Below, piece after piece: positions 5,273-32,069 of a DNA stretch of 64,000 nucleotides (positions are counted from its first letter, which is position 1; every line of letters begins with the position of its first letter). The notes under the pieces were generated by a model, which ran no database searches, was not told the DNA's origin, and worked only from the letters and a program-made list of their open reading frames with translations. A program made the translations under genes and the position numbers. Source of the DNA: Astropecten irregularis (taxonomy: Eukaryota; Echinodermata; Asteroidea; Paxillosida; Astropectinidae). The DNA is taken from positions 2,234,501-2,298,500 of the forward strand of contig OZ020256.1 in NCBI GenBank assembly GCA_963971285.1. Direction: 5' to 3'.

Positions 5273-5709
5273 TTAGCACGCACTCGTGCTGTTGGGAAAG
5301 GCATCAGATGCAACACTGTTGAACCTCTGGGACTTCCACACCGTCATCCCGTGGATGTGATGGAGAAATCGAGGGCAGACAGGGCAGTCTTTGTGAGCTT
5401 CGACCAGCATCCTGACAAAATCCTCGGCCCCCTCTTGCCTGTGCTGCTCCACGTGGCTCAGCAGGGCCTCAAAGGTGCAGTCGAGCTTGACCTCTGCTTC
5501 CAGAATCTCAAACAGGCACGAGGAATAATCCATGGAGCTGGCATTCTCAAAGACCTCCTTGCTGTGGCCCGCGAAGTGGAAAAAGCCTGAAATGGACTGG
5601 CGGAGCCGGTCACTGCCAGCCAGAATGTCACGCAGACGTCTACCGTGGGGAAAGTCATTTGAAAGGCTTTGCATTGTTCCAGTGCATTTCTCGTCTTCGT
5701 TTGCTGATC
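5273..5709 (-). CDS. Receptor A terminal exon: death-fold domain and stop
   Basis: Encodes 145 residues ending in TAA at 5273. A helical region from about residue 20 to 105 ([20 protein letters not shown] onward, then [20 protein letters not shown]) has the length and amphipathic pattern of a six-helix death fold. It aligns with receptor B at D(F/I)xHxRxL and at the tail [10 protein letters not shown] (B: CPACMRLLHM). The canonical death-domain Trp of helix 5 is not seen. A death effector or CARD subtype cannot be excluded. The domain would act as a cytoplasmic adaptor-binding module. Confidence 0.72.
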
Positions 5710-8700
5710 CTTGAGGGGTACAATGAACCAGGCACACTATCTTTTATTAGGCCAATAAAAAAATGGTCTGGCTACGGAAATATGACCTGCCTACGATTAA
5801 CGAAGCCCAATGTTGCGACTAAATAAGTTTATCCTAGTACCTTTTGCAATTTTATGCAACAAACGTAACAATTTTTCTACATTCTAAAAGCTCTGGGTCG
5901 AAAGATTTAATATAAAAAATCAGACCTTTTCAAAACTTATGTTGTTCCCAAAATGGAACCCCCACAGAAAAAACAACCCAAAACAAAAACATGTATTGTA
6001 GTACATGTTTAGTGTACAATGTACATTGTACAATCAAATAATTTCTGACCTACTTTTATGTTCCTGAAAAAACTTTCAGGTCATCTTCCAAGTTTCAGGC
6101 CACATTTTCTCTTGGCTTGACCTAGGCTTTGGTATGAAACAAGGTACAGGCCTGTTTCTTTAGGGCACCTTATTGCTCAATGAACAGGGGAAGCAAGAGA
6201 AACCAACTAGGGACCCACTGCCTCTAGGGGCCCCCTGGTCATTGCTTTACAAGCTTCCACTAACCCTGGTTAGGTATGTCCTTGAACTGTAGCACGTTTC
6301 TCATCAAAATCTCTGTGCTTTATAATTATCGGTATAAAACCGAACATGCCAAAAGAAAATGCAAAACGTGCTGCCAAGGCAAGTGTTGCAATTGCCTTTG
6401 TGAAGGTCCAGCTCTCTGTCCATGTAGACATGGAGGCAGGCGGGCTGGTCTGTACATGACCAAACCGAGTACTGACCAAAGAGGCAATTTAAATAAAAAA
6501 AAAAGCAAAACAGAGAAGGCATGAAAAAGAAGAGAGATCTATGAATCAAGAGACCTACCTTCCGGTACGCTGACGTCGCAATCGGCGATACTGGTTCCGC
6601 TCTCTTCACTGCCGCTGGTCGAGCCAAGTCTGAAAACTTCAAAGCTGTACGTAAACCCCTTGCGTAGACCAGACACTGGATACTCCTTTGTACCAGCCGT
6701 GATCTGTGTGGGAAACCCAGGCAGGCAACTGCAGGTCTGGATACTACACGGTGCTAGCAGATGTAAGCCCTTGAGTATGACGGTAGTCTCTCCGTCAAAC
6801 TCATACTCCAGTGGCTTACCTGTACACATAAAAATACAAAACAATTTTGAATATTCACCCAAAAATAACCCCCAAAATTACTTCAACTTCATTTGGGCCT
6901 CTGAGTATTAATAACAATTTTTTTAATTGTTTTTTTTTTGGGTGGGAGTATTATCAAAAAGTTGTGAATTACTATATAGGAGTCAGGTTGGCGTAACGGT
7001 TCTTTCCCCGCCTTTCACCCCTGTGGACCGGGTTCAAGTCCGGCTCGGTTCCCAAGTGGATTGGGTTTTCAGTCCCTACCTGATTCCATGGGTTTTACCC
7101 AGAATATTGCTCTGGGGTTTTCCTCCCACCTCTAAAACTGTATCTTCTTCTCATCATCTCTCCATAAAAGGTTTCATCAGGCTTGCAAGCTACAGCGCCT
7201 TGGCCGGGCACTTTTCAGGAATCCTTGGTGTCATTACCAGAAATTCATAATAATAATAATAATAATATGTAACTATTGGAAAAAGAAGTTGCATGTATTG
7301 TACATTAAAGTTATAGCAACACTAATAGTGTGCAGGCAGGCATTTACATGTAATACGTACATTTGGAAATCAGTGGCTACATGTATTTATGGACAAGTTA
7401 ATTTGCACGTTAAAGTCACAGTGTGATGTTAGACTAATTGTGCTTGACAAAAGAATTGAATCCGATTCAACAACAAACGCATGGAAATTCACAAAAAAAA
7501 GGGGAAAAAGAAGAGAAAGATTTGAGATTTGGCGTTAAACCACACGGAATTGCGGATGGCATCGTCTAAGTATTTGATCCTCAGTGAACAGAGCTACATG
7601 TAGGATGACCTGGGATGGTTTCATGAATAATTGATGACCAAAACTAATGGATTATCAGTAAATTTTTCTTTGTTCACTTTTCAATGATTAAAATAACTCA
7701 GTCAGTTTCCCTTGTGGTTATTTCACGAATATATTAATTAAAAAGCCGTATCCTCTTTGAGTGATCCCCCATGTGCCGTTCCCAGGTTGCAGCATTGTTG
7801 CGTGTATCATTGAAACGATCCCTGGGGTGTGGCGGTGTGTGCGTGGTTTCATGGCTTCTGACTGCCAAACGAACAAAGATAGTTGACTATTGGGGTCACC
7901 ACCAACATAGGGCTGGATGGCTCAGTTGGTAGAGCGCCTGTACGGTATTCAGGAGGTCGCCGGTTCGAATCCCGCTCCAGTCAATTTTTCTTTGTTCACT
8001 TTTTAATGGATTATCATTAATGGCGGAAAGCTCATGTGTATTTAGTAGGACGTATCACTGAGGTATTAACTACACGGGGAAAACACTGCTGATCTTTTGA
8101 CTGCACATATGCTCGTTTTTGATGTGAAAAACATTGATTGTACATCGTCAATTAGCGATCACCTTGACAAGCCCAGGGGCCAATTTCATAGAACTGCTTA
8201 GCACAAAAACTTTTTTAGCACAACATTTAGCTTGCCCAATCAAACAAACCACCAATGAAAATTCCACTTGATATTCATGGTCAGTGAACAACAGCCAAAG
8301 TACCAATTGCGAGTGATACACAACACATGGAAATTTTGTTGTTAATCCTGCTTTTACTAAGACAGAAATGTCATGCTTGGCAAATATTTGTGCTGAGCAG
8401 CTCTATGAAATTGGCCCAAGACCTGACTGGCTTTTTCAAGGGTCGGCTTGCATCAATTTACCACGACTTGCTTTGATTGTTGCCATGGCTACCTAAATAT
8501 GAGGACACAATGTTATTTCTTTGTATACCAGTTGTATACATGTAGATGGTTTACGAAACGGTGGCACAGGCTCATGCTTCGCCTCTGTCATCCATATTTT
8601 AAAAATATTGGTTGTGGTTTTTCGTTGAAGCTGAAGCTCAGTTTTTCTTTTCAAACCAAAGTATCAGTAGCTTATCCACTTCCCAGCCACAGCCAAAAGC

Positions 8701-11700
8701 CTCTATTTTGATATCCGTTTTTTTAGAATGGATTCACGAAAAGGAGGCGGAGCCTGAGTCTTAGCCTCCCATTCACTGCCATAGTGTCAATGAGTTAGGC
8801 GCAGAAGACAAATTTCTTTGGAAGTTCACAGCTAAATAGAAGGCAGCACTATGAGTTCACTATGGTGCCAGAGTATACATTAAAATACACTTTAACTTCA
8901 TGCAAATTAATATAAACTACATTGTACATGTATGAGTGGTAGACAAACACAAAATGACAAAACTGTAACAGAATTGGGTTAAATACGTACGTGTACCAGA
9001 GATTTTACGAATACCTGCCAAAATGTTCATAACGATAAAAAAAATAAACTGAAAATGAATACATGCGGTATGGTGGGGGTAAAGGAATGTACTATGTATA
9101 CACACAAAGGTGGGGCTAGCAAGGCAAATGAGGATTTACCAGGGGAGGGGAGGGGGTGACCACAAGGGGTTCATGGGAGGGTGTGTCCATGGGGGGTGTG
9201 TCCATGGGGGTGTGTCCATGAGGGTGTGTCCGTGGGGGTGTGTCCATGGGTTGCAGAGGTGCTCCTGTAATCCTGTGATGCATGCAGGCCGTACTGTGCC
9301 GCGGCGGCCGAAATTCAGCACAGAGAGCCACGGTTTCAATGCGGATATGCGCAGACACAAATAGTCACGTGTACACAGTATGCTGCTGTGCCTGACTGCA
9401 CGCAATGATCATTATTTCTCCACTAGCAAATGTTTCCACTGAGAAAATTAAACGTCCCTTCTGACAGGACCCACAGATCCCAAGTGGCAGCCAGGAAACT
9501 TCAAAGCCTGATTTTACAGCTAAACAAATTTTTTTTAAAATTTTTTCTTTGTCATAAGCACATTTTAATAATACACTTAAAAAAAAGAGTAAATTAATAA
9601 AATTACAGTTCGACTACGAAAATGTCATTAATGCAGTTTGGGCCAAAGTACAGTGTATCCCAAAGACATAGCGCCCTCGCTTGGCCAGCCACAAATATCT
9701 TTTTTTTTATAATTACTCACTTAAGAGCTGTCCACCACTGCTGCTGCTGTTTGAACATGTGAGTTTCCCTAGGCGTAGTCTACGGCGGCATAAACACGTC
9801 GTCAGTATCACACATAACACAATGATTGCAGCGATAGGAATACAAATGATCAGCCAGGATGGGAAGGTACCTAGAGAAAAAAATGACAGAGCAAAAGTTA
9901 GCATTCAAAAATCATCAAATAACCACAAGGGAAACTGACTGAATTTAAAGTCCTTAAAAAGTGAATAAAGAAAAAATGACTGGAGCATATTGATAAAATG
10001 ATGCTAGAGATATAAAGCAGTATTTGAGTGGTTTCATGGCTTCTGACTGCCAAACGAACAAAGATAATTGACTATTAGTATTAGGGACACCACCAACATA
10101 GAAATGGATAGCTTAGTTGGTAAGAGCACCGGTACGGTATTCCGGAGGTTGCTGGTTCGAATCCCACTCCACTCAGTTTTTCTTTGTTCACTTTTCAATA
10201 TTGAGGTGTTTACCTTATAAGTTTGGTATTGAAATTTGGCACTTATCACTTTCAGATCTACTCGTATTCAATGGCGTGTCATTCAACCATGAATAAATTA
10301 ATTATTTTCATTTGGGTGTCCGGGTCCTTGCACGGGAGAAGGGTTGTAACTTTACACATGATATGCAATAGGGTATGATGAGATTTTCAATTAAATGAAA
10401 AATACATATGTCTGAATTTTTTTTCCCAAAGTTATGTTTAGGAGTTGATATCCAGGCCAGTTAATTCATTAGAAGACTGACTGAAGCTAATCAAACACAA
10501 TGCCATCTCTACCCTCACAGGTACCCATTTTACACCTGGGTGAAGACGAGCAAATATGTTACAAAGCATCTTGCCCAAGGACGCAAGCACCACTAGCCCA
10601 TGGCTGGATTCGAACTCACAATCTGTAGATTGACCTACAATATCTTGAGTTCGACACTCCAGACCACTAGGCCACAGCACCTAATATTGACAGATATTTA
10701 AACAGACGTGACAGACGTACAAGTCGGGCTCCTTTTCCTTGCATGTGCCGTTGTTGCGACAGGTCTCTTCACAAGCATGTAGCCCTTTGACTGTTGGCAA
10801 CCAAACACATGTCATTGTTAGGATCAGGGCTTGATTTCAGAGATCTGCTTACTGTAAGCATTAAATTGGTGCTTACAGAAACGGGCAAATTTTAATTATG
10901 AGATCCTATTTCAAGGATTAGGGAAGAATTTTCAAACTTACACTGAATCTAATCACATTTATTTCAATGTTGACCTGTGTAAATGCACATTGTTGAGCGT
11001 TAATCAAGTAATTTACAATTTTTGATCAAAATACTAATAGTTACAGTCAGAGAAATGACATTCAAGTATTCATACAGGACAACATCTAGCTGTACAGGGA
11101 GAAGTGAAGCTTTTATACCCTGACGGTCTGAACTATGGACAGACAAGGACAAAGAATAAAAGGGACACTACAAAATCAGGCATTGACCAAAAAAAATATA
11201 TTTGGTATACAACAAAAAAACACGGTGGCCTCTGCAGTATGCGAGAACATTATAAAAATGTTTCATATTCACATTTTAAATTTCACATATGTATGCATAA
11301 TTTAAGTTTTTAGTTGCACGCTTGCATAGTTCGGGTAGCTAAGGATTTCTTGCTTATTCGGGTACACATGTAGTGCAGAAATTCAGTGCTAATAACACAG
11401 TAAGCAAAGAACGAGGATCATAAGCATACTGAATTCTGCTATTAGCAGAGACAGCCATGGAAATTGGGCCCGATTTGTTCAATGCTATCATAAAATGGCT
11501 TGTGAGCTTGTGGTGTTTCACCTTTTAATCGGGCATTCATTTGCATGTTGTAAGCTAGTCTATTTCATTCAACATGCCGCGAGTAGAATGCAGGTATAAC
11601 TACGAGCGTCCTATTTAATTCTTTATCTCCGTCCCATAGGGCAAGTGGTCATGAATTAACCGACACAAACAAGAAGTTTGGAAGGTTTGACGGATTCTAA

Positions 11701-14700
11701 ATGAAGATTTCTGTGCATACATGCGAGCATTCACTCATGACTATGCAAATTAGGCTTGCCCTAATTCTGCATGAGTTTAACCAACATGTTTTTACTGACG
11801 ATCACTCATTACAATCACATACATGTATGACTAGTCAAACAATTTGATTCTCAACGCTTCTTTATGTGGAATATGTCTGGTCAGGAGACAGGGTCCTTTA
11901 TCTGCAAATTAGATGTTCATACTCAATTCTGCAGGTGTTTTTATACAAACATGTATGAAACACAATCACGCATCACGAATACAACTTTACTTTGTTCGCA
12001 GTCAGTGCCCATGAAATTCTGGGGGCACTCGCAGGTGTAGGCACCCCTATCGTCACCCAAGCACGTCCCCCCATTCAGGCAAGGCTGGTTTGTCCAACAG
12101 TAATCTGAGCAAATCAATTTTCAAAAAGTGGAAACGAAGTCTGTAACAACCCATACCCATAAACAGCTTGGACCAATCATGGCTGACTGACTGTGTATCC
12201 AGTGTGTACACAGCTGAACAATCCACTGTATACATGTATTGTGAGCAGCCATAACTTGGACCAATCATGGCTGATTGCACATTTGGTGCAAGCAGAGCAT
12301 AGGGCCTGTTTGTTTCGCACACGAGATCCGTGATCTGCAGATCCACGTCCCATGCAGGATATGCTCAAATGGGATCCGGATCAGCAGGATCATTGATCTC
12401 ATGCACGAAACAAACCAGCCCATAGACACATGATTCACAGTGCACATAAAGAACTGCCATCTTTGGTCCGAAAATTGGACCAGGGGCCGATTTCATAAAA
12501 CTTACGACGTGTCGCAGAGTTAAGACGCATCCTTTCTCTATGGACTCACCGCATAGATGCGACGCATCGCAGCTAGGATGCGTCACAAATCAAATTGCGA
12601 CGCGTTGCAGAGCTTTATGAAATCGGCCCCAGTTATGGCTGATTGCGCTTTGAGATTCAAAAGCAGCCATCTTTGGTCCAATACATTGTAGCTATGGCTA
12701 TGGCTTGAACCTACCATATTCACAGTTCATTCCAGTGTAATGCTCAGGACACTTGCAGTTGTAGCTCCCTTGGTCATTATCATCTACTTCCATGCAGGTG
12801 CCCGCGTTCAGACAAGGCTGGTGGTTCCCACAATACGTCAGATCTGACCGATCAAAAAGGGTGAAGACCGAACATGTTAATCTAAACCTCCATTTTGGGA
12901 ATTCCTTTCAAGAATCATAACCTATCTGAGAAATTGCAGGGTTTTTTTAGGGGAAGGAAAACCCAAGATTCTAGGGAAAATCCACGGGACTCCAAACCCA
13001 ATCAACAGGTTGCCCTCAGGAGGATTCGAACTAAGGACCCCACAGATGGAAGGGGAGGAGAGGAAGAACCACCCCGAATCCCCTGTCATCCATCTCCCAA
13101 GCATAACTTGACTTCAACGTTAAAATTTACACCAGTTTTTATAGCGAGTTAGCAAGAAATCGAGGTCGTACATGTACATTTGCAAAGATAAAACACACTT
13201 TTGCTAGCAAGGAGCACCACAACATTAAGATATATCTTTTCCAATGCTTACAGTACAGCTAGCTGCCCCAGCCTAGGGCATGAACAAGAATTAAGAATAC
13301 ATTTTGCCAATGAGCATTATTGCTGTAAAGCTGGCCCCTTCATAAACACAGTAGGAAACATGAAAAATGAAGGAAAAACCATCAGATATACAGGAATATG
13401 AAGTGGGTCATTCTGTGTTACATCAACCAGTGGTCCCAGGTATGACGTTTCATTAGAATAATGGAATAATTATGTCCAGTATGAATACGTGCAAACAATT
13501 AATATCCTCCACCATGCAGCTTTTGACATATAAACCATCTGTCCTAAACATTTGGAGGCGACGACCATTTTTCAAATAATCATCACAAAAACATGTAAAA
13601 CCACTCTAACACGCCCAAAAATGGCCGTTGCTTCCAAATTTGGATGAACGACGTGGAGCATAACATTAATTTTTCTAATTTCATCATTCTCATGAAATTT
13701 CATCAAAATCTGAGGAGGGTCTTTTCTAGGATTTTTAAAGTAATTTGGTTGACTTTTCACTTTGACCAAACTGCAAGATTGTAGAATTGCATTCATAAAA
13801 AACATGGTGTGATTTATTACACTGACTGATGATACTAGGGATGAAGAAATAGCGAGAAAGATGCAGACCATGGGCCAGAGACTACTATGATTGAAAACGT
13901 AAGCTGAGCTGGAGAAAATGTAGATGAGCAGCCGACTGACTGCTGGCATCAACATCATAAGTAAATGATTTACTAGCTTGATTAATGACTAAACTAGATC
14001 CATTCACCATATGTTCACATTACCAATGTTAGTCAAACATGCGTGTGTTGCTTCATAGGTACCATGACTCACCATGCGGCTAGATGCTACAATGTATTAG
14101 GCAAAGAATATCTAATATGGAGAGCACAGAATATGAAATGAGCGTTCAAGTATGTAAATGAAATTGAGGTATTGTGCTGGGCTGCATACATACACACACA
14201 CATGGACTTGGCCCAATGCCAGCCATACATATTGTACCGGTACATGGTGTATGTTATAAATTAATCATATGTATGTACATATTTCCAGTAGACCCTATTC
14301 AAATAATGATCCCTGTCGCTAACTTAGTCTAAGGGAGCACCTGCCCTTTGCCCCTACCCTAGCCCCAAACCGGAAAACACCATAATTATCATACTCTAAT
14401 GAATGTTGCACAACTGACCAGAATTGCATTGCTCAAGCAGACAATTTATGCTGCATTTAAAAAAAAAGAAACATTTCCTTAACATTAATTGTGTGTTACA
14501 TAAATTTATTCTATTCTTCAAATGACGAGGACGTCATCAATAAATGAATTTTTTATTTTTTTTTAATTATCAATTGGTAATCTTTTTGTCTATAAATGTG
14601 CTACACCATTTATCTGGATGTATTTTGAAATTAACGGTAGGTAATAATATGAATCTAATTTGCATCTTCACCTTTTTGCGATAAAAATGAGAGGAAAAAG

Positions 14701-17700
14701 CGATAGCTAGCACTCATGTACTTGTAAAAAGTGGATTAAAAATTAAAAATGTAAGTAAGGAGTAAGGAGGGCCTGATGTTGCAATCCTGGCAGAATCTTT
14801 CTAAAAGCAGATTATTTCAAACTGTACACTAACTATGTTCACTGAAAGTTCCCTTCCTGTGACTGCGTAAACGCTTTGCACATGTTACACAATGCGTATT
14901 GCGATACTATTAAAGATAGGATGAAATGGTTTTTGAATTGCTTTGGGGGTGGGGGCGGTGAAACATGTCCACTCCCCAAGCGGTTGATTTTTGAAGAGTT
15001 ACCTCCGTCATCAATGCAGGTCGGGTTGGAGAAGCTAAGAATCAGCTCGGCCAGCAGACAAGAGCATGCATTGTCTGTAGGACTGAACCGTACAAATCAC
15101 ATACATGCACATGTATGCAAAGGTCTATGGGTAATTGGGTATCATGCAACAATATAATATTAAAACTAGAGTGAATGAACCCTGTGGAGATAATGGAAGA
15201 CTTTTGAGAACCAGTCTTCAAGTCAACAGTGCACGCGCACGCAATTGTGAGCATGCGCGCGTTGTTTTGCGCGTGCGCTGTTGTGCGTGCGGCACGCACG
15301 TGCGCTGTTGACTCAAAGACCGGTTCTCAAAAGTCTCCCATTAACAATGGAGCAGTCCAGACCAGTCATAACCCGGTGCACCGCGTGATTAACTCTTCTG
15401 AGGAGAGACCGTTCAGACAGGACTGAGAATTTCACCCGGGTATAATGATCCCGCCGTCTTAAGGAGATGAGGGCCACAGCATTCTGTCCAGATCGTCCAC
15501 CTGAAAGCTTGGTTTCTTTCAGAGCCACGCTGGTTCCCTAAGGCATCAGTTTTACAGTGCACCATCAACTGAATACTGTAGTACTGTGCTTTTCAGTGAA
15601 ATATGTACACAATCGTACGACTCTCTCTCTCTAAACAAAAAGCCCCATCTCAGTCCGAGTAAGCTTGCATGGCCAACAATGCAACTTCAAAGCGTTCATT
15701 CTTTTGTTTTTCAAACACTATTCCTTCGATGCTTTGTGTTTCGCTTCACAAATTGACAGATCTAAATTGATAATTACTAACGTGTGTTTTGTTGTTGCCA
15801 TCATGCATCTTTTTAGAACTGAATCTATTGGGCTGTTGGGACCTGTTAGTTTTGCGCACAGGATCCCACATCTGCGAATCCCCGTCCTATGCAGGGTACG
15901 CTTAAATGAGATCTGGATCAGCAGGGTCACTGATCTTGTGCATGAAGCAAACATGCCCTTCGACCTTTGCAATTCACATTTGAAGAATGTCTGATACACT
16001 GACTTCACTTCATTGCATACTGCACAAATCAATTCCAATTCCCCTGACTGAATACACTGTAGCTATGTCACACTACCAGTCTTCTTGAAGGTACTTTGGA
16101 GTACTGCTTTACATGTGGATATTAACAGATATGAATCGGTGTAACGTACCTTGATCACACAGAGGTCCTCCCCAGCCCACAGCGCAGATACAGTCTCCCG
16201 ACGTTGCGTTACAATGTCCGTTTACGCAGTCGTTGGAACACTGGTCACACAACTCCCCTTCCCAGCCTTGGTCACAACTGAAATTCATAAAATGTCATAA
16301 AATTCTGGTAATAAAAGCTGCACAAAATAAGCCAACTGAAAATACCAAACTCATCATAACTCATCGTTTTTCATTATCAATCGTAGGACTTGCATGTATG
16401 ATGCATTGCAGCCCTACGTAGGGTACAATGGGTTATAAATCCTTCATAACTCAAGTTACGATCGGTCATAGGGCTTCATGAAATTGACCCCAGGAATAAA
16501 CTATGAAGTGGTTTTTATACCATATGAATTAAAATTCAAGAAATTCAACTACAAAAAGTAAAATGCAACATTACTTGTGTTGTAATTTAAGTAATTAAAG
16601 GTTGGGTTAGACCTTGGGAATAGATACACTTTTAATTTTTCTACGACGAAGATACATGTCCATAACACTTACACGCATTCGCCTGAATTTTCACAGCCGC
16701 CATGTTGGCAACCCTCCTTGCAAGTAACAGGAACATCTACAGTGTAGCAGGATTTAACAAGACAAGAATTGAGTGATGAAGAATCCAAATAGAAACGTGT
16801 CGCAATATGAGTCTGAAACGTGTCACAGTTTGAGTCTGAAACATGTCACAGATTGAGTCTGAAATGTGTCGCAGTTTGAGTCTGAAACGTGTCACAGTTT
16901 GAGTCTTAAACGTGTCACAGTTTGAGTCTGAAGCGTGTCACAGTTTGAGTCTGAAACGTGTCACAGTTTGAGTCTGAAAAGTGTTACAGTTTGAGTCTGA
17001 AACGTGTCGCAGTTTGAGTCTGAAACGTGTCACAGTTTGAGTTTAAAACATGTCACGGTTTGAGTCTGATGCAAATTTGAATTTTGGACAACATGACCAT
17101 CACAGCGTCAGTTTATGAGCTGACACAGTACATGATACACAACATACCAAGGGATTAGATTGAGGAATTTCAAGCAGCTCTTATCTTGTGTGGTAGATGC
17201 AGAGGGTTAGGGTTAGGGTTAAAAGGAACATAAATCCAAACTTAAATGAAATCATCAATCAAAGAGCAACTGAACCTTGGGGCGTTGGTGGTGTGACACC
17301 GCTGCAGGAGCACATGGACCTGTTGGCCTTGGGTGAGATGCCATTACTGGAACAGGAGTTGGGGCAATAGCCTTGATTGACGCAGCCAGCCATGATGCTC
17401 ATCTTAGTCTCTCCCAACGAGGCCAGGGTGTAGGGGTCCGGGCAAGCTTCACAGGGTCGACATCGCTGTTCCAGACAGAAAAACCTGCAAACGTACAACG
17501 TACAGAGAGATGTCATTAAGGAAAGGTTTTATTTCATGCTTGAAATGTTCATGCTTGGAGTTAGAAGGATGCATTTCGATCATTAAGCCTTTGATAAAGA
17601 TTCTGTTAGGAAACAAGTCAGGCCCTCCTATAAACTTCAAACATTTGATAAATTACAGGTCATTATTTTCGCTGATGAAGCAGTTTGCAGTGGTATTAAC

Positions 17701-20548: not shown

Positions 20549-20900
20549 AATTTGTCAAAGGTGTGGCCTTAGTCTGCGAGATGGCCCCCTGTTAATGGCC
20601 GCCTTTCAGCCGAGAGGCGGCCATGCTGAAATTGTTATTACCAGACTATTAATGAAGAATATGAAATAAATCGATTTTAACAATATTTTCAACAATGAAA
20701 TAGGGGCCCTTGGAGAGAAGCATGATACATGTACCGACCATGAAACTAAATTTTGTCAAAAGGTTTGGCCTTGGTCTGCAAGATGGCCGCCTTTCAGCCG
20801 AAAGGCGGCCATGCTGAAGCCAGCAGTTTATATCAGCCTATTAATGAAGAACACGAAATAAATTGATTTAACAATATTTCAATATAACGATGAAATAATA
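20549..20900. repeat. Direct duplication, each unit with a GC hairpin
   Basis: Units at about 20549-20705 and 20750-20900 share GTCAAA, GGCCTT(A/G)GTCTGC, a hairpin, CATGCTGAA and AATGAAGAA. In unit 2 the hairpin (20782-20811) is perfect: ATGGCCGCCTTTC, loop AGCC, GAAAGGCGGCCAT. In unit 1 (20595-20624) it has one mismatch. Confidence 0.8.
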
Positions 20901-21887: not shown

Positions 21888-22100
21888 AGGGTGTTTACGA
21901 AACGGAGGCTCAGGCTCAGGCTCCAGTTCTGTCATCTATATGCTGAAAATATAGGTTGTGGTATTACATTGAAGGTGAAGCTCTGTTTTCCTTTTCGAAC
22001 CAGAGAATGTACTTCAGAACCGCAGCCAAAAGCCTCTATTTTGATACCTGTTAATTCAGAATGGATTCACGAAATGGAGCCTCCGTTTCGTAAACGCCCT
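21888..22100. mobile_element. Family M4 element, most complete copy
   Basis: Begins AGGGTGTTTACGAAACGGAG and ends CTCCGTTTCGTAAACGCCCT, giving near-perfect terminal inverted repeats of about 22 bp. It lies about 250 bp downstream of the receptor B stop codon, within what may be its 3' UTR. Confidence 0.78.
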
Positions 22101-22351
22101 ACATCTTAAGTCAGGCTACTCTCCCGGATTTCAGAGATGGCCATCCAGTGTTGTCTGTCCATCGTGTTCATTCTTATTACCTCCACCTCCAAACCTCTTG
22201 TGACCAAAGCATGAGAAGATTATTTCCTCTAATAATGTCTAATGAAATGAATAAGGTGACCAATAATCTTGAATGGAGTCATGGAGTTTGAGGTATATTG
22301 TTAATGTTGAATGACACTCAAGCTATTGTATGAACAGCTCAGAATCCTCCA

Positions 22352-22794
22352 CTATACAGTCACTTTGGCAGTGTCAGGACTGGACGTTGGTTCCAAGGGG
22401 CTCATTACAGAATGCGACATGTGAAGCAGTCGCATGCAAGCCGGACAACTACGACCAGAACATTTAATGTTGGCCAATTTCCACACAAATTTCTCAGCCT
22501 CTGGGTATTCCGTGAGTTTATCCATGACTTCGTGGATTGGGATTGCTTGGCCTCTCTCAGGATAGGTTTCCAGAATTTCACCGAGTACCTCCAGCTTTTT
22601 ATGGTCTTCAGCATTTTTAACTCGGCGAAGATCGTCGCCTTCCAAACCGCATGAATGTGCAATCAGGGCCGCCAATCTCTGACGTTTCTTACCACTGATC
22701 TCAATCTCAAGGGACCTCGAGTGGGAAATATCCTCGATGACATCTCCAATAGTGGTTGTACAGTCATCCAGCTCATCCATCTGGCCAATGTCTC
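22352..22794 (-). CDS. Receptor B terminal exon: death-fold domain and stop
   Basis: Encodes 147 residues to TAG at 22352. After an acidic linker (MDELDDCTTTIGDVIED) comes a helical domain: RQRLAALIAHSCGLEGDDL, KKLEVLGEILETYPERG, then PIHEVMDKLTEYPEAEKFVW. The last is helix 5-6 of a death fold. The tail CSGRSCPACMRLLHMSH contains the CPxCxRxLH motif shared with receptor A. The final residues are Ser/Thr-rich. Subtype (death domain against other death fold) is not resolved by eye. Confidence 0.75.
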
Positions 22795-25700
22795 CTGAAA
22801 CTGAATGAATGTTACCTAGTCAATTCCAGACAAGAGACAACTTTCTAATAATTTTTGCACACACTTTTTATCTCTTTTTTTTTTTTCCTTTAGTAAATAA
22901 AACTGGAGTGGAGTGCCGTGGTCGAGTGGTCTGGCATGTCGGACTCAAGATCTTGTGATCAATCTACATATTGTGGGTTCGAATCCAGCCATGGGTTAAT
23001 GGTGCTTGCATCCTTGGGCAAGACGCTTTGTCACATATTGCTCCTCTTCACCCAGGTGTAAATGGGTACCTGCGAGGGTAGAGATGGTTTTGTGGTTTGA
23101 TTGGCCTCTGTGCACCTTATGGTAGCACGAGGCTGTATACTCCCCAGGGAGCTGAGATTGTTTCAGGAATGTAAATGGGCCCGATGACCAGGGATAATAA
23201 TAGTGTAAAGCGCTTTGATACCACTCTTGTGTGTGAGAGTGCTATATAAATGCCGATATTATTATTATTATTAAAACTATTCCACACTTAAAATATATAT
23301 CTGCATTAAAAATTTTGTTTGGATTTTCTTAATTGTCTCCATGGGGTGGGGGAAACTCTGGCCATCACTTTTCTTTCATCAAACCAAAGTAATAATGTTC
23401 TCCACTCCATTCAATGCACCAGAGATTCTGCAATTCAAGTCTTACCCGGTACTCTAAATGTTCCCTCTGCGACAAAGCGCTGGAATGCTTCACCAACGTC
23501 CTGCGTAAGAGAGTAACTGGACGGGTGAGCGACCCCGGCCCGCACCGTGTAGACGAGTCCTGGCTGGATGCCGGAGAGGTGTACTTCATCTGCTTTTGGT
23601 GAGATGTCAATCCACTCCTTGTCCCTATTCTGCATCAGGCAGGAACAGACCTCCAAGGCATTGCACTGAAGGCGCTGTAGACCACGCACTGTGGCCCAGC
23701 GGCCGCTTCTATCCACGTCTACACGGAGACTTTCATCTGTTCAAAACAAACAACAGCGCGTGTGGAATTTGTACATGTATATTACCTGATGTTAGTCCAA
23801 GGGTCAATTTCACCAAACTCATCGTAACATACGATGCATTAAATCGTAGAACTTATGATGCATTAAAACCCTACGTAGGATACGATGGGTTATCCTTCGT
23901 GACTCGAGTTACGATCGATCGTAGGGCTTCGTGAAATCGATCCCTGGGCCCACTTTTCTTGACCCTGCTCAGTGTTAAAGTTGGGATTGGGGTCCTATGG
24001 AATCAGAAAACTGCTTACATCCAATATTGTGAATCAGCAAGGAATTTCCTGTATTTTGCACAATTCAGCTTTTCTCCTCGATTCTCAGCTAGCAATTAGC
24101 ATAGAAATTTGGCACAAAATGATTAGTGTACGTGCAGAATTTACTGCGATAGAGTGGTGCAACGAAAACAAAAAATGGGCCCAGAGTGCATGTTATGAAC
24201 AAAATGTTTGCTGGTGGCTTTACCATGATCACGCGCCACGCGAGGCTGACCGTAACCCATTACAATCCCATGTATTGAAGCAGCTCTTCCGTGGCGGATC
24301 TAGAGGCGGGGTTTTCAAGGGTTGCACTCCCCTCACGCCCCCCCTCTCTTTCTCTCTTGGTACTTACACTTAGTGGATTCTTCTAGACTCTTAGCCTCCC
24401 GCCACGACTTTAACTCCTTCACGTTGAGCTTGATGGTGTAAGCGGTGCCGGGCTCCAAGTTGCTGAAGGTATGACGGGCAATGTGGTTGGGACTCTTTCT
24501 CAAGCTGCCCAATAAGATCTCCTGGGCCAGCGGACCATCATCGCTCTTCTTGCAGCTCAACTTGATTTTCTTCCTCCAGTGCTTTTTATTTTGAGCCGCC
24601 ACTTGGATTGTGAGGCTGGTCGGTGTTGCATCATTCACTTTCATTTCATCTGATATTAAAGAGACAACAAAAAACTTCATAAAAAATAATGCAAAGCAAA
24701 CAATTGTGCACATGCAGTGCTATAGGAAGATGTGTTCTTTTTTGTAGTGACACATTTTGACAAATTGTGACACTTTTAGCCCAATTTGACGGCTAAAATC
24801 GATTGAAATGTTACACAGATATTACAACTCTTGCCCCAAACCCTGGCAGGTTTTGAACATCCGCCCAACTGTAATGCTACATAAAAAAAAAACCAAAACC
24901 AAGATGCTCCCAAACCAAGACCAGCAACAGTATTAAGGGTAGTATCATACTTTGGTAAGAAACCAAAACAGAAATGTTCACAGATTTACGTATAACTTAC
25001 AGGGTATGAAGATGGTGGTGGTAGAAACCTACCGTTAAAATTATTCTGCCTGAAATTGTGTATTTATCCAGAAATCAGTAAAACAACGACCGAAAATCTT
25101 TTTGATCTTTTAAACGATCAAAAATAAAAGAGAAAAGACTTAAGAAATACTGTGGCCGTTTTTCATGATTTTCTCAAAAAGTGGGCAACGTATGGGACTG
25201 AAATTTTCACAGATGACTGTGACTGTATCTCCCTTGATATTTGTGCCCACGAATCTGTACATGTACTTCTTTGACAAAAACCAAAGTATGATACTACCTC
25301 AAGTTAAGGGAACGTTTCTTGAATGACAGTGAATGAAGATAAGATGATCAATGTTCCACAGCAACCCATACTTACATTCTAGGATCGGTGTTTCAACATC
25401 ACTTTTTTGACGTTTGTCGTTGCATATTATTTTCTTGCGGAAAATGAAGACAATAAAGCATGCGCATACTGTGCAAAGTACAGCAATGCCCATCCACACA
25501 TACCAATGAGTATCTGCTAAAAACAAAAAAGAGAGATTCAAAAATGAAACTGTTACGTGCCAAACGAGACAATCAACATCAATAATTTCATCATTTAGCA
25601 TCTTTCAAGAAATCAGAGATGTGAACTAAATATTGTCTTCACTGAAGAAAGAAAATGGATTTGGCTGTATAAAAGGCCCCCTGAAGTCGTCTGAAGAACT

Positions 25701-28700
25701 TCCGTCCAGTTTTTTTTACTAGATGTGAAAAAAAAAATGATTCATAACCTTTGAACTAACAACTTCTTGATTCTTACTCAGCAATATGTGATAACATTCC
25801 ATGGAACCTTTGTGGAATGAAACAGCCTTGTTTCACTTATCTTGTTGAAACAATACTGAACTTATGTTGCTACACCTATGTTATTTCTGATATGCACTGT
25901 ACATAACAATTCTTGGACGCATGCTACGATATTGCACATCAATGAATGCATATATAAAGTAATGATAAAGCTTGCCATCCCTATGTAAAATAACTGTCAG
26001 ACAGTGAATGTATCTATTACACCAGCACAACATGATGATTATTGAAACCTTTAATATTGCTGATGATGGGTAGAATTGCAACAATATCATTTCAGAAGAT
26101 TTCATGTTCACCATTGTAGCCCACTTTGGCTAATAAATACTGAGCAGATGTAAGCACCGTTGAAGAAAAATACAGCAAAACCTGGTTGACACTGCTCACA
26201 AAATAACCGAGCAAATTAAGCCAAATATGACTTCACAACACTGGCAGAATTATGAAACAACAAAATTGCTAAAAAAGTTCAACTTCCTGTCGAGATCTGT
26301 GCTGAAATGCCTATTTTATTTTTCTTTACAGCAATTTCACTTGAAACACTTGAACTGATGAGCCAGACTACTTGAAACGGAATAAAGCAGAAACATGTTA
26401 AATACAACAACTAACAAATGAAAATTTGACAGCCATGTGTCATATTCCCAAAATAGCAAGTTCTATCTATACTGTTGGGGGTAAAAATTTACGTCGCTGG
26501 TATCAATGACAAAAATAAAGTACTTTGTACTTTGTATCAGTACTTTGTGAATTCAAACCAATCCCCAAGATGTGGCTATAGGTAAAATGAATGCAGTAGG
26601 GCTTGTTGTTTGTTTCGCGCACGTGATCAGTGATCCTGCTAATCTGGATCCTGCATGGAGCGTGGATCACTGATCACATGCCTGAAACAAACAGGCCCTA
26701 CCGTCTTCCATGGGGTTGCTTACCTTCTTCGACAGGTGCTTTACTGCTAACGGGCACCGGTACCGGTATATCGTTACGTTTATCTGTGAGAAGGGAGGAA
26801 GCATCAATTGTGCAAGTCAGTATTCCGTTGGGTTAGTCAAGACGAGCACAAAAAGAAGTGTGTGAAGCCGGAATAGAACCTGTGACCTCTGAGTTGCTGT
26901 AACTGTGCTCTAGTTCGTTTGTTTGTTTGTTTGCTTGTTTTCTATACTTACCAGTGCATGTTAAACCCGTCCATTTGTCACTGCACAAGCACTGACACAA
27001 AGTCGTGTTTAGCGTGCCCAGGTTTTCACATGCCAGCTCACACTCTGGGAAAGAAACAAAAATGTGTTAAAAAATGAAACCATTCACGGTTTGATGAATT
27101 TACAAGTATTACAAGTAAGCAAAACGTACACAACTACAAATTTAATCGAAATTATGGCCTTTTATTATGGATTATGGTGTTATTACATGGCACAGACTAT
27201 CGGCAAGGAACGGAACTGAAAGGAAGACTGATGAGGTCCATGTCGCAAGAGGCAACGTTTACCAGCAACATGGAGGCAACCAGCTACACAGCATGCAAGA
27301 AGAAAAATAATGCAAACACAAAAGTAATTTTCTCTCCAGTTAGGAACTTACCAGAACAGTCAGGCCCAGCCCAGACGTCACTGCAAGTGCATTGACATGC
27401 ATCTGAATCCAGAGTTCCACCATTTAGACACGACAGGTTGCAGTCTAATTGAGCAAAGTACAGAGGGATGGCCCAACATTTAACAAGATCTACATTATAG
27501 TTCAATGTCAGGGTTACCCTATTTCATGGGCTTGGCTCAGTACACACCACAGCAAAGGTGGTCAATCTGACATGGATGCAATGTAAACTGGGACCGTGAA
27601 CATTTGACTCAACAATAGCCAACACAATACAGAAAATGAGAAGCTGGGGAACGATGGCGTCACCGTGACTGTTTCTTGACTGCCATGAAAAGCCAGTTGG
27701 AAACACAAGGCTGAAAATTGACTACGAAAAGAACACAAAGGTGGGTATGGACAAAGATCCTATAGCTGCGCAAGATACCTACACAGCTACCAAATTTAAT
27801 CGAAATTATGGCCTTAGAAGGATTATGGTGTTATTACATGGCACAGACTATCGGCAACGAATGAAACTGAAAGGAAGACTGAGGTCCATGTCGCATAAGG
27901 CAACGTTTACCAGCAACATGGAGGCAACCAGCTACACAGCATGCAAGAAGAAAAATAATGCAAACACAAAAGTAATTTTCTCTCCAGTTAGGAACTTACC
28001 AGAACAGTCAGGCCCAGCCCAGACGTCACTGCAAGTGCATTGACATGCATCTGAATCCAGAGTTCCACCATTTAGACACGACAGGTTGCAGTCTAATTGA
28101 GCAAAGTACATGAGGGATGGCCCGACATTTAACAAAATCTACATTATAGTTCAATGTCAGGGTTACCCTATTTCATGGGCTCGGCTCAGTACACACCACA
28201 GCAAAGGTGGTCAATCTGACATGGATGCAATGTAAACTGGGACCGTGAAAATTTGACTCAACAAAAGCCAAAGCAATACAGCAAATGAGAAGCTATAGGG
28301 AATGATGGCGTCACCGTGACTGTTTCTTGACTGCCATGAAAAGCCCTGGGGTAAAACACAAGGCTGAAAATTGACGAAAAGAACACAAAGTTGGGGTGTG
28401 TATGGGAGTGGGGATGCAACATACTAGTCTGGTTCCCGGACCCAAAAAGTTCCCGACTATTGTCTGTCAAGTATAGGGTCCAGTATCGGCTAAATTCACA
28501 AGAGGGTCACGTGACCAAAAAAGTCAATTTTTGACATTTTACGGAAAAATCTGAAACATTACGGACTCGTTTTCGTACAACTTCGGATAGTTACGTTGAC
28601 TGTCGGCTTTTTCCACCAGGTCACGGGAGGTCATGCACGTCAGAGAAAGACACGTCATGTAAGTATGTTTATAATTCCATGCTACAGTTAGCCAAAATTG

Positions 28701-31700
28701 AGCATACATTGTCCACATATAAGGGAGCACATATACGGATCACTCTTCCTATTATGCACTTTTGAGGAGTTTGTTGTATGGTTTTTTCCCACTCTTTGAA
28801 CTCTTATTCTGCCCAAATAAAATTGCATGTGCTTACAAAAGTGCAAAAGTGAATGCTAAAATGGAATCTCGCTAAACTCTAAAACTAGCTTCCGCGCCTG
28901 TGCAGACATGACAGCTGTGTCATGTTCTATTTTTAACCGTAGCCGATACCTGACCTAAGATTTGTAATAAGAGTCATCAGGGAATCTTTGGGCAGGGAAC
29001 CAGACTAGCAACATACATGCATGACATGCAGGCTGAACAGGCCATGGTGAGACAGTTGGTGGGAAAATAACTCTTGTCGACTTGACTTGTTCATACATTA
29101 GTGATCAAAGTCTCACAATATTATCCAATAAAGGCCGTTGATTTTCAAAGTCGAATTCAAACCTACAAGCCCCCGGAACACTGTACCAGTGCTCTTCCAA
29201 ATTAGCTACATGTATCCAGCCTTACATGTACATGTATGTTGGTGGTGAATGGTTTGAGGGTGGGGGATTCGTTTCATATATTCGTTTCGGTATTCATATT
29301 TTTTTTTCTTACCTGGCTTCTGTTGGAAATTCTCCCTTTCGCAGAAGGTCACATTGGCTGGTGGGCGGCCTCCTAAGTCCAAATTCCTGCAAAGCCTCGG
29401 GCAAAACCCATTGCGCTGGCATGCACGCACCACGTATATTTTCCTCTCAGTGCCGGAATAAGGATCCGGGCATGGGGAACATAGATGGCATTTTCGATCC
29501 AAGTCATCGCAATAGAACCTGAGTACAAAGATAAAGCAGTAAGGACATGCGTAAATTCATGAAATTGAATGAAAATGACGACTACATATGTGGCGGTACT
29601 GGAGGCAAAATTCTAAAAAATGCGGGTCTTTGGTGGGCATGAAAGGGTCATCGGCGGGTTTGTACAGTGCGATTTGTGAAATGCGGGTCACCTGGGAGGA
29701 GCTATGCATTCATGATACTAGGGAGGTTTCACATTGCGAACGGATACGCATATGCCTACGTTCAGCTATCCGTAAACATCAACAGCCAAACTGATGTTTC
29801 GTAAAGAAGTCTAGATCCGACAACGGAGAACATCCCTCACTTTGAGGCTAATTTTGTCTTATATTCTTAAGGCTTTGAAATACACTGTACATGGATATGA
29901 CAAGTACGTGTTCAGCAATTCCTTCCATCTTAGAATCATAAAAATGCACATGACAAAAAAAAATGAACAGGGAATTACTAGAAAACTGAAATTCACCACG
30001 CGTTTAATACTTACACATAGCAAGCAAGATATCCGTGCCTCATAACGGATAGCGGTAAAACAGTGACGTCATAAGTACGCAAAAACAAGTGACGTATCCG
30101 GCGTGCTAACCGTAAACCTCTACTGTTCTCAGACACCATGATATTGACCTACCCTTCTTCGTTATTGCACCCTGCACCGTTCTCACACAATGCTTCGTCC
30201 ATGTCGATGATTTCTGAGCCTATGTAAGCTGATACAAACAATCTTGAATGAAGAGATACAACCACACATACATGTAGAAAAACCTGTTTTGCACAAAGAA
30301 ATTGAAATAAAATAGAAACATAAAAATTAGGTCGAAATACATGAAATAAGTTGGGGCTAATTTGAAAGATGAAATCCAATCAGAGAAGCTAAAGATTATA
30401 ACCTGGGGCCAATTTCATAGATCTGCTTTAAAGCACAAAATGTGAAGAGTCTTCCTTGATCAAACAAGATTACAAAACCAAATTTTCATGTGATATGTTT
30501 TCTGCTTTTGACTTGTATTTAGCCATTGTTTGCTGAGCATAACATTCACAAGGAGTTTTGGCTGGCATACTGATTATATTTACCTTGGATGTTTTTGGTT
30601 TTTGGTGCTTACACAAATTTTGGTACTTATGAAATTGGCCCCTACAAGGTTTTAAGCGTTTTAATTAAGTTGCAATGAACTGTACCATTGAGATGACCTG
30701 GTTTTTATCAGGGTTGATAAAAATCATGATTTTTATAAAAAATAAAAAAAATCGGATTTATTTGATTTAAATCAGATTTTTTTGATTTAAATCGATTTTT
30801 TTGATTTAAATTAAAATCTTAATTGTTTTTACGTAATAACATTTTACTATCGTAACATTTTGCTTTAAAAAACCCAAAATGATGCCAAATTGCATCTTCT
30901 TGTCGCTTGGGCATTGTGGTAATTAAAATGTAGCAAAAAAATCCAAAGCAACAAAAAACAGAAAATGTTACTGACTGTCACTACAGGCATACTCTATTGC
31001 TTCCTTGCTGATGGGATGTTTAAGACCACATTCAAAGATGTTTCATGGTTTGAACATGTACCAGTGGTCCATTTGCATCTCAGTACATGTGTATTAGAGC
31101 TACTAATGGCAGTATTATTGTGCAAAGTCAAGATGTAGTGATGTACACAAACAAAAGTTAATTCTTTGCAGTTGCATACATGTGCATATTATTTTACTGT
31201 GTAATTCTATTCATTGTATAGATACTTGTAAATTACAAGTAATGCTGTACACATACATGTGTACATTGTACTTTGTTTCAGGATACTGCCTCATTTTTCA
31301 TACATGTGTGTATACGTGCATGCATATTTTGTACAGTAAAATTTCATTGTAATAACACAACATAAACTGTTTGAAGACACCCTTATAGTGGAAAAATTAA
31401 GCCAAAAGAATAATGCAAGTGTTCTTTCAGTAAGATATTCTGATTTTCGTTAAAAAAAATCATGAAATAATTAAAAAAATCATGATTGATTTTTATGAGC
31501 GATTTTTTTGATTTTTTTCCATTGATTTTAATCATGATTTAAATCAGTGATTTAAAATCAAACAACCCTGGTTTTTATAGCCCTGGTTTAATGTCAAATT
31601 GTAGCTTTGTGGAATTCAGCTGGGCTAATCTTGTGGAACAAAACATATTATTAGCTTATCTTTCCTTTCACTTCTGGCGGTCCAGGTTCGAGTCTGGCTC

Positions 31701-32069
31701 AGTCCACAACTGAGTGGATTGGGTTTTCAGTCCCTACAAGATTCTGTGGGTTTTGTCCAGAATATTACTCTGGGCGTTTCCATCCCTGATCATCTAAAGA
31801 ACTGTATCTTCTTCATTACCAAATCCATAAAAAGTTTCACCAGATTTTCGAGCTATACAGTGCCTAGGGCACCTTTGGGGATTTTATCTAGGGTGGTTTC
31901 ATTACCCGCCAGATAAATACATGAAATAGTGATGACAATAATTTTACTAATAATATGATTTTAACTTTTAACTGATTTCAAACAAACCTTTTGCAGTGCG
32001 GACAGAGGCAATTTCATCTTGAGAGATTGTGTCGCTGGCTCTAGAGGAAAACGCTAGCCCAAACTGCGC
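22352..32069 (-). CDS. Receptor B: Cys-rich/EGF, TM, two FN3-like, death-fold receptor (spliced gene)
   Basis: Paralogue of receptor A. Exons on the minus strand: 32069-31988, 30228-30153, 29518-29313 (Cys-rich), 28092-28000, 27444-27352 and 27044-26952 (EGF-like), 26783-26724 (Pro/Val linker), 25513-25376 (TM), 24649-24368 and 23736-23446 (FN3-like), 22794-22352 (death fold, stop). Every junction is frame-consistent; from the third exon on all introns are phase 1. The recovered coding length is 1857 bp, or 618 residues. The signal peptide exon (expected to end in phase 0) was not found between 32.1 and 35 kb. Relative to receptor A it has an extra FN3-like domain and simpler EGF repeats. Function is inferred as a death-fold signalling receptor; the ligand is unknown. 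Confidence 0.8.
22913..23275 (+). mobile_element. tRNA-derived SINE family S2, full-length copy
   Basis: Head GTGGTCGAGTGGTCTGGCA and GGGTTCGAATCCAGCC, body GGTGCTTGCATCCTTGGGCA with CACCCAGGTGTAAATGGGTA, 3' part AAAGCGCTTTGATACCACTC with GTGCTATATAAATGCCG and an (ATT)n tail. This is the typical form of invertebrate deuterostome tRNA SINEs. Intronic, between the death-fold exon and the second FN3 exon of receptor B. Confidence 0.85.
23446..23736 (-). CDS. Receptor B exon: second cytoplasmic FN3-like domain
   Basis: 97 codons, phase 1-1. The segment VRGLQRLQCNALEVCSCL aligns with [18 protein letters not shown] of receptor A, and LSGIQPGLVYTVRAGVAH gives the FN3 F-strand signature. So this is the domain shared by both paralogues. 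The Cys-x4-Cys-x-Cys cluster is odd for an extracellular-type FN3 fold and more in keeping with a reducing cytoplasmic setting or metal binding (inference). Confidence 0.78.
23801..23945. mobile_element. Inverted-repeat element family M2, copy 2
   Basis: GGGTCAATTTCACCAAACTC at the left, GGGCTTCGTGAAATCGATCC at the right, with CCCTACGTAGGATACGATGG in the centre. It lies about 65 bp upstream of the receptor B exon at 23446-23736. Confidence 0.78.
24368..24649 (-). CDS. Receptor B exon: first cytoplasmic FN3-like domain
   Basis: 94 codons in a phase 1-1 exon. It has an FN3 outline: ATPTSLTIQVAA (B strand), IKLSCKKSDDGPL (C strand), then FSNLEPGTAYTIKLNVKE (the F-strand LxPGTxYxxxV signature). 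Receptor A has no counterpart between its TM exon and its single FN3-like domain. Basic and Lys-rich in the centre (NKKHWRKKIK). Donor GTAAGT, acceptor AATATCAG. Confidence 0.78.
24937..25299 (+). mobile_element. 350-bp inverted-repeat element family M3, copy 2
   Basis: Bounded by GGGTAGTATCATACTTTGGT and ACCAAAGTATGATACTACC, near-perfect TIRs. Interior landmarks: GAAGATGGTGGTGGTAGAAA, GATCTTTTAAACGATC hairpin, AAGAAATACTGTGGCCGTTT. Other copies: 19239-19573 (reverse), 55531-55894 (same), 60150-60478 (reverse, one TIR lost). No coding frame. Confidence 0.85.
25376..25513 (-). CDS. Receptor B exon: transmembrane helix
   Basis: A 138-bp, phase 1-1 exon. The hydrophobic run VWMGIAVLCTVCACFIVFIF is followed by RKK, a stop-transfer signal that puts the following domains in the cytoplasm. 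The remaining residues are polar and acidic (KRQKSDVETPILE). Acceptor TTAGCAG, donor GTAAGT. Positional counterpart of 9721-9870 in receptor A. Confidence 0.85.
26598..26700. mobile_element. Palindromic element family M1, copy 3
   Basis: AGGGCTTGTTGTTTGTTTCG to GCCTGAAACAAACAGGCCCT with central GTGATCAGTGATCCTGC. Ends 24 bp from the donor of the 60-bp linker exon of receptor B. Confidence 0.78.
26724..26783 (-). CDS. Receptor B exon: Pro/Val juxtamembrane linker
   Basis: A 60-bp, phase 1-1 mini-exon encoding DKRNDIPVPVPVSSKAPVEE. The alternating Pro-Val stretch and the position between the last EGF and the TM exon suggest an extended extracellular stalk. Both splice sites are good (CTCACAG; GTAAGC). 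A palindromic element (26598-26700) begins 24 bp past its donor. Being symmetric in phase, it could be skipped without breaking the frame. Confidence 0.7.
26952..27044 (-). CDS. Receptor B exon: EGF-like repeat 3
   Basis: A 93-bp, phase 1-1 exon: CELACENLGTLNTTLCQCLC then SDKWTGLTCTG. Same length and Cys spacing as the duplicated exons upstream. Acceptor TTTCCCAG, donor GTAAGT. It contains one potential N-glycosylation site (NTT). Confidence 0.82.
27352..27444 (-). CDS. Receptor B exon: EGF-like repeat, copy 2 of duplicated pair
   Basis: Same 31-residue EGF module as 28000-28092, in the downstream unit of the tandem duplication. The Cys pattern C-x3-C-x10-C-x-C-x-C-x7-C with W-x-G before the last Cys is shared with the third repeat at 26952-27044 (CELACENLGTLNTTLCQCLC), from which it is clearly diverged. 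So the exon pair is a recent event and the third repeat an older one. Confidence 0.78.
28000..28092 (-). CDS. Receptor B exon: EGF-like repeat, copy 1 of duplicated pair
   Basis: A 93-bp, phase 1-1 EGF exon encoding CNLSCLNGGTLDSDACQCTC then SDVWAGPDCSG. It is identical base for base, as far as I can see, to 27352-27444, and lies in the upstream unit of a tandem duplication of about 650 bp. Acceptor CAATTAG and donor GTAAGT are also identical, so both could be spliced in, giving three EGF repeats in total. Confidence 0.75.
29313..29518 (-). CDS. Receptor B exon: N-terminal Cys-rich domain
   Basis: Encodes FYCDDLDRKCHLCSPCPDPY, then RACQRNGFCPRLC and a basic/polar tail. It aligns with the receptor A exon 17276-17484 at F(F/Y)C-x4-(R/K)C-x2-C-x2-CPDPY and C-x3-G(F/Y)CP-x2-C, with identical entry (2) and exit (1) phases. 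A single NVT site could carry an N-glycan. Acceptor TACTCAG, donor GTAAGA. Confidence 0.8.
30153..30228 (-). CDS. Receptor B exon: short acidic N-terminal exon
   Basis: Encodes YIGSEIIDMDEALCENGAGC followed by NNEEG. It ends in phase 2 at GTAGGT, like the first exon of receptor A, and the next exon supplies the G. The paired Cys correspond in position to YCPREC at the end of the receptor A signal exon. The acceptor is either TATCAG (used here) or TACATAG nine bases later; both keep the frame. Confidence 0.65.
30402..30644. mobile_element. Family M5 element, copy 2
   Basis: Termini GGGGCCAATTTCATAGATC and TATGAAATTGGCCCC; interior AAAGCACAAAATGTG. Between receptor B exons 30153-30228 and 31988-32069. 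Confidence 0.72.
30706..31572. mobile_element. 870-bp element with AAATC/GATTT-rich inverted ends
   Basis: Left end CAGGGTTGATAAAAATCATG and then GATTTAAATC iterations (to about 30815); right end from about 31440 repeats AATCATGATT and GATTTAAATC and finishes AATCAAACAACCCTGG. The unlike middle has no open frame of note. Interpreted as a non-autonomous DNA transposon in the receptor B intron. Confidence 0.65.
31655..31925 (+). mobile_element. tRNA-derived SINE family S3, copy 2
   Basis: Shares CAGGTTCGAGTCTGGCTC (B box), GATTGGGTTTTCAGTCCCTA and ACTGTATCTTCTTC with the copy at 7 kb. Head degraded, tail absent. It ends about 60 bp before receptor B exon 31988-32069. Confidence 0.72.
31988..32069 (-). 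CDS. Receptor B exon: N-terminal segment (weakly supported)
   Basis: Open in one frame only, reading AQFGLAFSSRASDTISQDEI and on to AKA at the junction. It has a good acceptor (TTTCAG) and a usable GTTTGT donor, and its phase-1 end matches the next exon. No Cys and no recognisable domain; it would follow a signal-peptide exon that I could not locate. It could be a false exon. Confidence 0.5.

Follow-up and report, generated by a model that had tools for sequence, protein, structure and literature searches.

Introduction

Integrin beta-4 has a Cys-rich ectodomain with an EGF-like stalk. Comparable ectodomains are encoded by two tandem genes (gene 1 and gene 2) that we describe here from a 64,000-nucleotide stretch of contig OZ020256.1 of Astropecten irregularis (the window, in whose numbering positions are given below); in both, the ectodomain is followed by one transmembrane (TM) exon, by one or two exons resembling fibronectin type III domains (FN3-like exons) and by a helical last exon. 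The likeness continues at the membrane, as integrin beta-4 has a single TM helix and FnIII domains in its cytoplasmic part, according to PMC4452579; the statement of an earlier note on this DNA that no described receptor class has this order was thus too strong. The differences are that the spliced gene 1 and gene 2 proteins have no Pfam match to the integrin head or to Calx-beta, that the present genes are far smaller, and that their tail is a helical exon with a Cys/His motif.

TNFR-type receptors with a single cysteine-rich domain (Fn14, BCMA, Grindelwald; PMC8024323) share with the present genes a short CxxCxxC head, a type I TM helix and a signal peptide (found in gene 2). The gene 1 Cys-rich exon has a weak TNFR_c6 match, and 3 kb beyond the edge of the window there is a gene whose two TNFR_c6 matches exceed the cut-off. 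Unlike in that type, the Cys-rich exon stays under the cut-off and is followed by EGF repeats, and the proteins would carry cytosolic FN3-like modules and no recognised death domain. The comparison with UNC5 and PIDD (ZU5-UPA-death) holds as an analogy at most: gene 1 has two beta-type modules and then a helical region after the membrane, but there is no ZU5 or UPA match, and against death domains the last exon scores no higher than its reversed sequence. The hybrid immune receptors of amphioxus, TNFR-caspase among them (PMC2575513), are likewise deuterostome receptors with unusual domain joins and differ in that the terms "fibronectin" and "fn3" occur 0 times in the main text of that paper. 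PMC8294545 describes the nephrin FN3 domain as cytoplasmic, although this domain is usually placed outside the cell. A literature search over titles and the beginnings of abstracts, in which few subscription papers were covered, returned no receptor that joins a TNFR-like or EGF ectodomain to a TM helix, FN3 and a helical end.

Results

Exon Order and Gene Models

Both genes lie on the minus strand and have the order Cys-rich exon, EGF repeats, one TM exon, FN3-like exon(s) and a last exon of about 145–153 codons. The earlier note had placed the TM exon before the FN3-like exons, one or two in number; the coordinates and the phase 1 joins confirm this in the DNA of both genes, with two FN3-like exons in gene 1 and one in gene 2. 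The best reading of both models is a receptor with cytosolic FN3-like modules, and to this extent the earlier proposal stands; the death fold that it added at the C-terminus is reduced to a helical signature. From the sequence, a type I orientation with the FN3-like modules inside the cell is probable. The fuller account, in which the genes are tandem paralogous type I single-pass receptors acting by the mechanism proposed below, stands in our judgement at an even balance.

The models were built from stop-to-stop frames and splice-site scores. The gene 2 model (18042 to 5273) comprises nine exons, all in frame, that open with an ATG and a signal peptide, close with a stop and encode 535 amino acids; the gene 1 model (30219 to 22352) comprises nine exons, in frame to a stop, and 575 amino acids. 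In both models, phase 1 applies to all joins that follow the last EGF exon. The exons are as follows.

Gene 2
17903..18042, minus: exon 1, ATG, signal peptide and Cys-rich start; ends in phase 2; donor 6.0
17300..17484, minus: exon 2, TNFR-like Cys-rich (plausible); 37% identical to the gene 1 counterpart
16673..16736, minus: EGF exon a, phase 1 to 2; weak acceptor (−0.6)
16150..16277, minus: EGF exon b, phase 2 to 1; EGF_Teneurin 27.9 bits (cut-off 24.3)
12715..12843, minus: EGF exon c, PF00008 30.4 bits (cut-off 21.5)
11991..12104, minus: EGF exon d, PF00008 28.7 bits (cut-off 21.5); weak acceptor (−0.4)
9721..9870, minus: TM exon, stop-transfer CRRRLR; Kyte–Doolittle (KD) 2.99; acceptor 5.2, donor 3.5
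6559..6819, minus: FN3-like exon (fn3 profile comparison, PDB search, motif)
5273..5709, minus: last exon, helical region, CxxC-x4-HxxH tail (5386-5351), stop

Gene 1
30153..30219, minus: first exon found, Cys-rich start; ends in phase 2
29313..29518, minus: TNFR-like Cys-rich exon (plausible), TNFR_c6 12.8 bits (below cut-off 29.4)
28000..28092, minus: EGF exon 1, DNA identical to EGF exon 2
27352..27444, minus: EGF exon 2, apparently a recent duplicate, EGF_2 14.3 bits (cut-off 22.1)
26952..27044, minus: EGF exon 3, EGF_2 19.5 bits (cut-off 22.1)
25376..25516, minus: TM exon, stop-transfer FRKK; KD 2.67; acceptor 4.7, donor 5.3
24368..24649, minus: FN3-like exon a, Pfam fn3 E 1.7e-4, 22.2 bits (cut-off 25)
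23446..23736, minus: FN3-like exon b, counterpart of the gene 2 FN3-like exon
22352..22815, minus: last exon, helical region, CxxC-x4-HxxH tail (22447-22412), stop

Exon 1 of gene 2 encodes a hydrophobic N-terminus, and its phase 2 end is compatible with the Cys-rich exon, whose own 3' end is uncertain between weak donors at 17300 and 17276. An EGF-like piece near 10790 was omitted from the gene 2 model as it had no consistent donor. A gene 2 intron contains a 23-bp tandem repeat of 12 copies (window 16792-17069).

In within-window tblastn comparisons, the Cys-rich exons of the two genes are 37% identical (E 4e-9) and the last exons 26% (E 4e-5), while FN3-like exon b and the gene 2 FN3-like exon match weakly (27% over 48 residues, E 0.09). 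The genes also agree in strand, in exon order and, beginning with the last EGF exon, in phases. We infer that they are tandem paralogs, a relationship that holds at the Cys-rich and last exons. Protein searches of the same genome were run with four exons as queries: FN3-like exon b, the last exon of each gene and the Cys-rich exon of gene 1. At their sensitivity, these four queries gave no family copies beyond those in the window. Two extra Cys-rich matches (E 0.27 and 0.41) were rejected as family copies: they contain stops, with no other family exon within 25-26 kb.

Transmembrane Exon and Topology

Both gene regions were scanned for phase 1-1 exons of 75-330 nt with a 19-residue KD mean of at least 2 and acceptor and donor scores of at least 3. 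The scan returned only the two proposed TM exons, in three rows, two of which are alternative acceptors of one exon; its thresholds were fixed, and weaker exons were beyond its reach. The 15 residues before the helix contain no Lys or Arg in gene 2 and one in gene 1, against five and six, respectively, after it. In the two genes, Cys density falls from 15.0 and 15.4 per 100 amino acids before the TM to 2.7 and 4.3 after it, and there is no second hydrophobic stretch, the highest 19-residue hydrophobicity mean after the TM being 1.2. Because of the Cys density, the charge distribution and the single hydrophobic stretch, a cytosolic position of the FN3-like part is favoured. Gene 1 has four sequons before the TM and none after it.

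Two other arrangements bear on the same exons. If the TM exon were a cassette, the main FN3-containing transcripts would skip it and be secreted, with the FN3-like modules extracellular. The EGF, TM and FN3-like exons start and end in phase 1, and TM skipping would therefore keep the frame; the two sequons in the gene 2 last exon also fit this arrangement. However, TM exons with good splice sites occupy the same place in two diverged paralogs, Cys is low after the TM in both genes, and the post-TM part of gene 1 is Lys-rich and lacks a sequon, which makes the cassette improbable. Alternatively, each locus could hold two transcription units, one for an EGF-TM protein and one for a separate cytosolic FN3-helical protein, as would be allowed by the TM-to-FN3 introns, whose coordinates give lengths of 726 bp (gene 1) and 2.9 kb (gene 2), and by a TM exon that could read through to a stop. 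In both paralogs, however, the splice sites are good and the exons on either side agree in phase 1, and we regard separate units as very improbable.

FN3 Character of the Exons after the Helix

The FN3-like exons were compared with a profile of 25 fn3 domains of the same genome, taken from 150 matches (150 of 845 candidates were scored). Exon a scored 67%, exon b 22% and the gene 2 exon 26%; the pair of exon b and the gene 2 exon (A3) scored 70% and the three exons together (A2) 85%. Reversed queries fell to 0.08-0.12%, and none of 80 shuffles reached the score of exon a or of pair A3, to which two the shuffle control was confined. The match that the earlier note had proposed to check with hidden Markov models (HMMs) is present and is lost on reversal and shuffling. 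Against profiles of ZU5, UPA, DD, DED and CARD, the same exons scored at most 0.56%.

An LxGLxPGxxY-type turn motif occurs in 3/3 FN3-like exons, a looser pattern of it in 23/25 of the fn3 domains from the same genome, and the profile-profile match around this turn is specific to fn3. In PDB searches, fibronectin or engineered FN3 proteins made up 8/10 matches of exon a (best E 0.009) and 3/3 matches of pair A3 (E 0.46-0.81), with weak E-values in both cases. The FN3 character of the post-TM exons is thus supported at the level of sequence, and their full FN3 fold is unproven. A ZU5 or UPA identity is not supported, with no Pfam match and scores of at most 0.51% (ZU5) and 0.23% (UPA) on small, uncontrolled templates. 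The template sets comprised 8 of 11 ZU5 matches, 3 of 4 UPA matches as 2 rows (one of which merges two matches and may contain an intron), 6 of 6 CARD matches and 10 of 13 DED matches.

Helical Last Exon and Its Cys/His Tail

Alpha periodicity over the whole last exon was reached by 2/300 shuffles in gene 1 and 0/300 in gene 2, and over the trimmed core of gene 2 by 1/300. In both genes the exon ends in a CPxCxRxLHxxH tail (window 22412-22447 and 5351-5386, minus strand); the CxxC-x4-HxxH pattern arose by chance in 5 and 6 of 20000 shuffles, and it is possibly a metal site, one that the earlier note had passed over.

Death-fold families were tested with Pfam and profiles from the same genome (DD, DED, CARD) or through Pfam only (PYD). 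The last exon gave no Pfam match over the cut-off (best E 0.15, unrelated families), no NCBIfam match and no death-fold match in PDB, where five unrelated matches had E 0.48 or worse. The control profile contained 47 of the genome's 86 PF00531 matches (48 loci were in hand, and one was dropped for a stop).

These data can be set against a divergent death receptor of TNFR type, with a true death domain in the last exon and FN3-like modules inserted before it. Such a receptor would explain the sensible alignment register of the last exons with death domains and the scores of the last-exon pair (A1), 11% overall and 18% for its core, above 80/80 and 399/400 column shuffles (reached by 0/80 and 1/400). 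The DED, CARD and fn3 profiles stayed below 1% for this exon, and the genome holds 86 PF00531 matches. However, the reversed pair, taken whole and not as the core, scored 13%, no lower than forward; either last exon alone scored 1.2-1.5%; and in single-sequence HMM comparisons 157 and 55 of 2000 shuffles scored as high. Held-out divergent true death domains scored 91-98.5% (8/8 tried; five of them reversed, 0.2-2.5%), and neither last exon is among the 86 matches. A death receptor of this kind seems unlikely. Since the reversed pair equals the forward one, single exons score low and true domains lie far higher, the C-terminal death fold of the earlier note is not established; beyond the helical signature it is unsupported, being neither shown nor excluded. 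A CARD or DED identity is not supported, the profile scores being below 1%.

The 86 PF00531 matches, many of them clustered on C8, C9 and C12, form a large death-domain set in this genome.

Predicted Extracellular Part

The sole Pfam match of the Cys-rich exon is TNFR_c6 in gene 1 (E 0.16), with none in gene 2, and PDB searches with the Cys-rich exons returned nothing useful. Against 11 TNFR_c6 modules (of 14 matches in the same genome), the Cys-rich pair (A4) scored 21.7% and its reversal 0.8%, while four EGF exons scored at most 0.31%. The pair's score was reached by 0/80 full shuffles and by 3/80 with Cys fixed, indicating that CxxCxxC drives it. A TNFR-like nature of this exon is plausible but unproven.

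Gene 2 EGF exons b, c and d exceed the EGF profile cut-off, and the spliced gene 2 reaches 33.6 bits; all gene 1 EGF exons lie below the Pfam EGF cut-off. A tandem duplication of about 620 bp (window 27124-27745 and 27777-28395, 93.6% identical) carries a gene 1 EGF exon. The duplicated 93-base exons are identical in DNA, which suggests that one EGF repeat is a recent addition to gene 1.

On the plus strand, 3 kb left of the window, a gene has two TNFR_c6 matches over the cut-off (G000:C20:2231270-2231527). By our own reading it has a TM-type frame at about 2232909-2233286; it points toward gene 2, and its later exons may fall in window 1-5000.

Weighing the Evidence and Proposed Mechanism

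Several observations weigh against receptors of type I order with cytosolic FN3-like modules. In the gene models, no signal-peptide exon of gene 1 rose above thresholds in 30160-36000, which is why the model starts at 30219 and the extent to 32069 given in the earlier note was not retained. In gene 2, the Cys-rich exon has a weak donor (−3.3 or −4.1), and the acceptors of EGF exons a (−0.6) and d (−0.4), like that of the last exon in gene 1 (0.1), do not rank among the top 10% of minus-strand AG sites in the window. Three sequons of gene 2 follow the TM, against two that precede it. Phase 1-1 exons are typical of shuffled extracellular modules, and the FN3-like exons are of this type.

The FN3 assignment itself is also affected. 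In Pfam, fn3 matched exon a only, under the cut-off (E 1.7e-4; 22.2 bits against 25), with no fn3 match for exon b or the gene 2 exon, and the profile matches span just 19-29 columns. Held-out true fn3 domains scored 96.6-99.0% (7/7 tried), above the FN3-like exons, which are therefore diverged. The ZU5, UPA and CARD templates were small (8, 2 and 6 sequences) and had no positive control. As for the helical end, the trimmed core of gene 1 shows no significant periodicity (49/300 shuffles), and FN3-like exon b is also somewhat helix-periodic (15/300).

If the type I reading is right, the TNFR-like/EGF ectodomain would bind a ligand or matrix partner, and the receptor would cluster. The cytosolic FN3-like modules would serve as a spacer and protein-binding platform, comparable with the cytoplasmic part of integrin beta-4. 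After clustering, the helical end and the Cys/His tail, possibly holding a metal, might recruit a cytosolic adaptor in the manner of the TNFR family; this adaptor-recruiting role is a tentative proposal. A further step would be to see here a new receptor class, with a TNFR-like/EGF ectodomain, a TM helix, a cytosolic FN3-like scaffold, a new helical signalling domain that is perhaps a distant death-fold relative, and a metal-binding CxxC-x4-HxxH tail, present as a single tandem pair in this genome; taken as a whole, this is somewhat unlikely.

Should transcripts confirm the models, FN3-like modules would lie in the intracellular half of a small receptor, for which integrin beta-4 is a precedent and for which the literature search gave no TNFR-like one. 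Phase 1 exon shuffling could then carry an extracellular module across the membrane by means of a preceding TM exon. The conserved Cys/His tail offers a concrete site for testing.

Neighbouring Genes and Other Observations

A search of a plasmid collection led nowhere. The mitochondrial COX1 on contig C168 has AAA at positions of conserved Asn, AGA for Ser and ATA for Ile, as in the echinoderm code, and frames read as ND1 and ND2 are on the opposite strand to COX1, the arrangement of sea stars; the DNA itself thus points to an echinoderm, probably a sea star. Elsewhere in the genome, a 14.4-Mb contig carries a COX1 copy (G000:C25:9951047-9952018) that has 7 TGA codons and is probably a mitochondrial insert in the nuclear genome, while another COX1, uninterrupted (G000:C131:32162-33484), lies on a possibly bacterial contig. 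Within the window, frames at about 36200-45300 resemble a coiled-coil gene, and the upstream neighbour at 48278-61441 (minus strand) matches Alg6_Alg8 (2.8e-23 and 1.9e-9).

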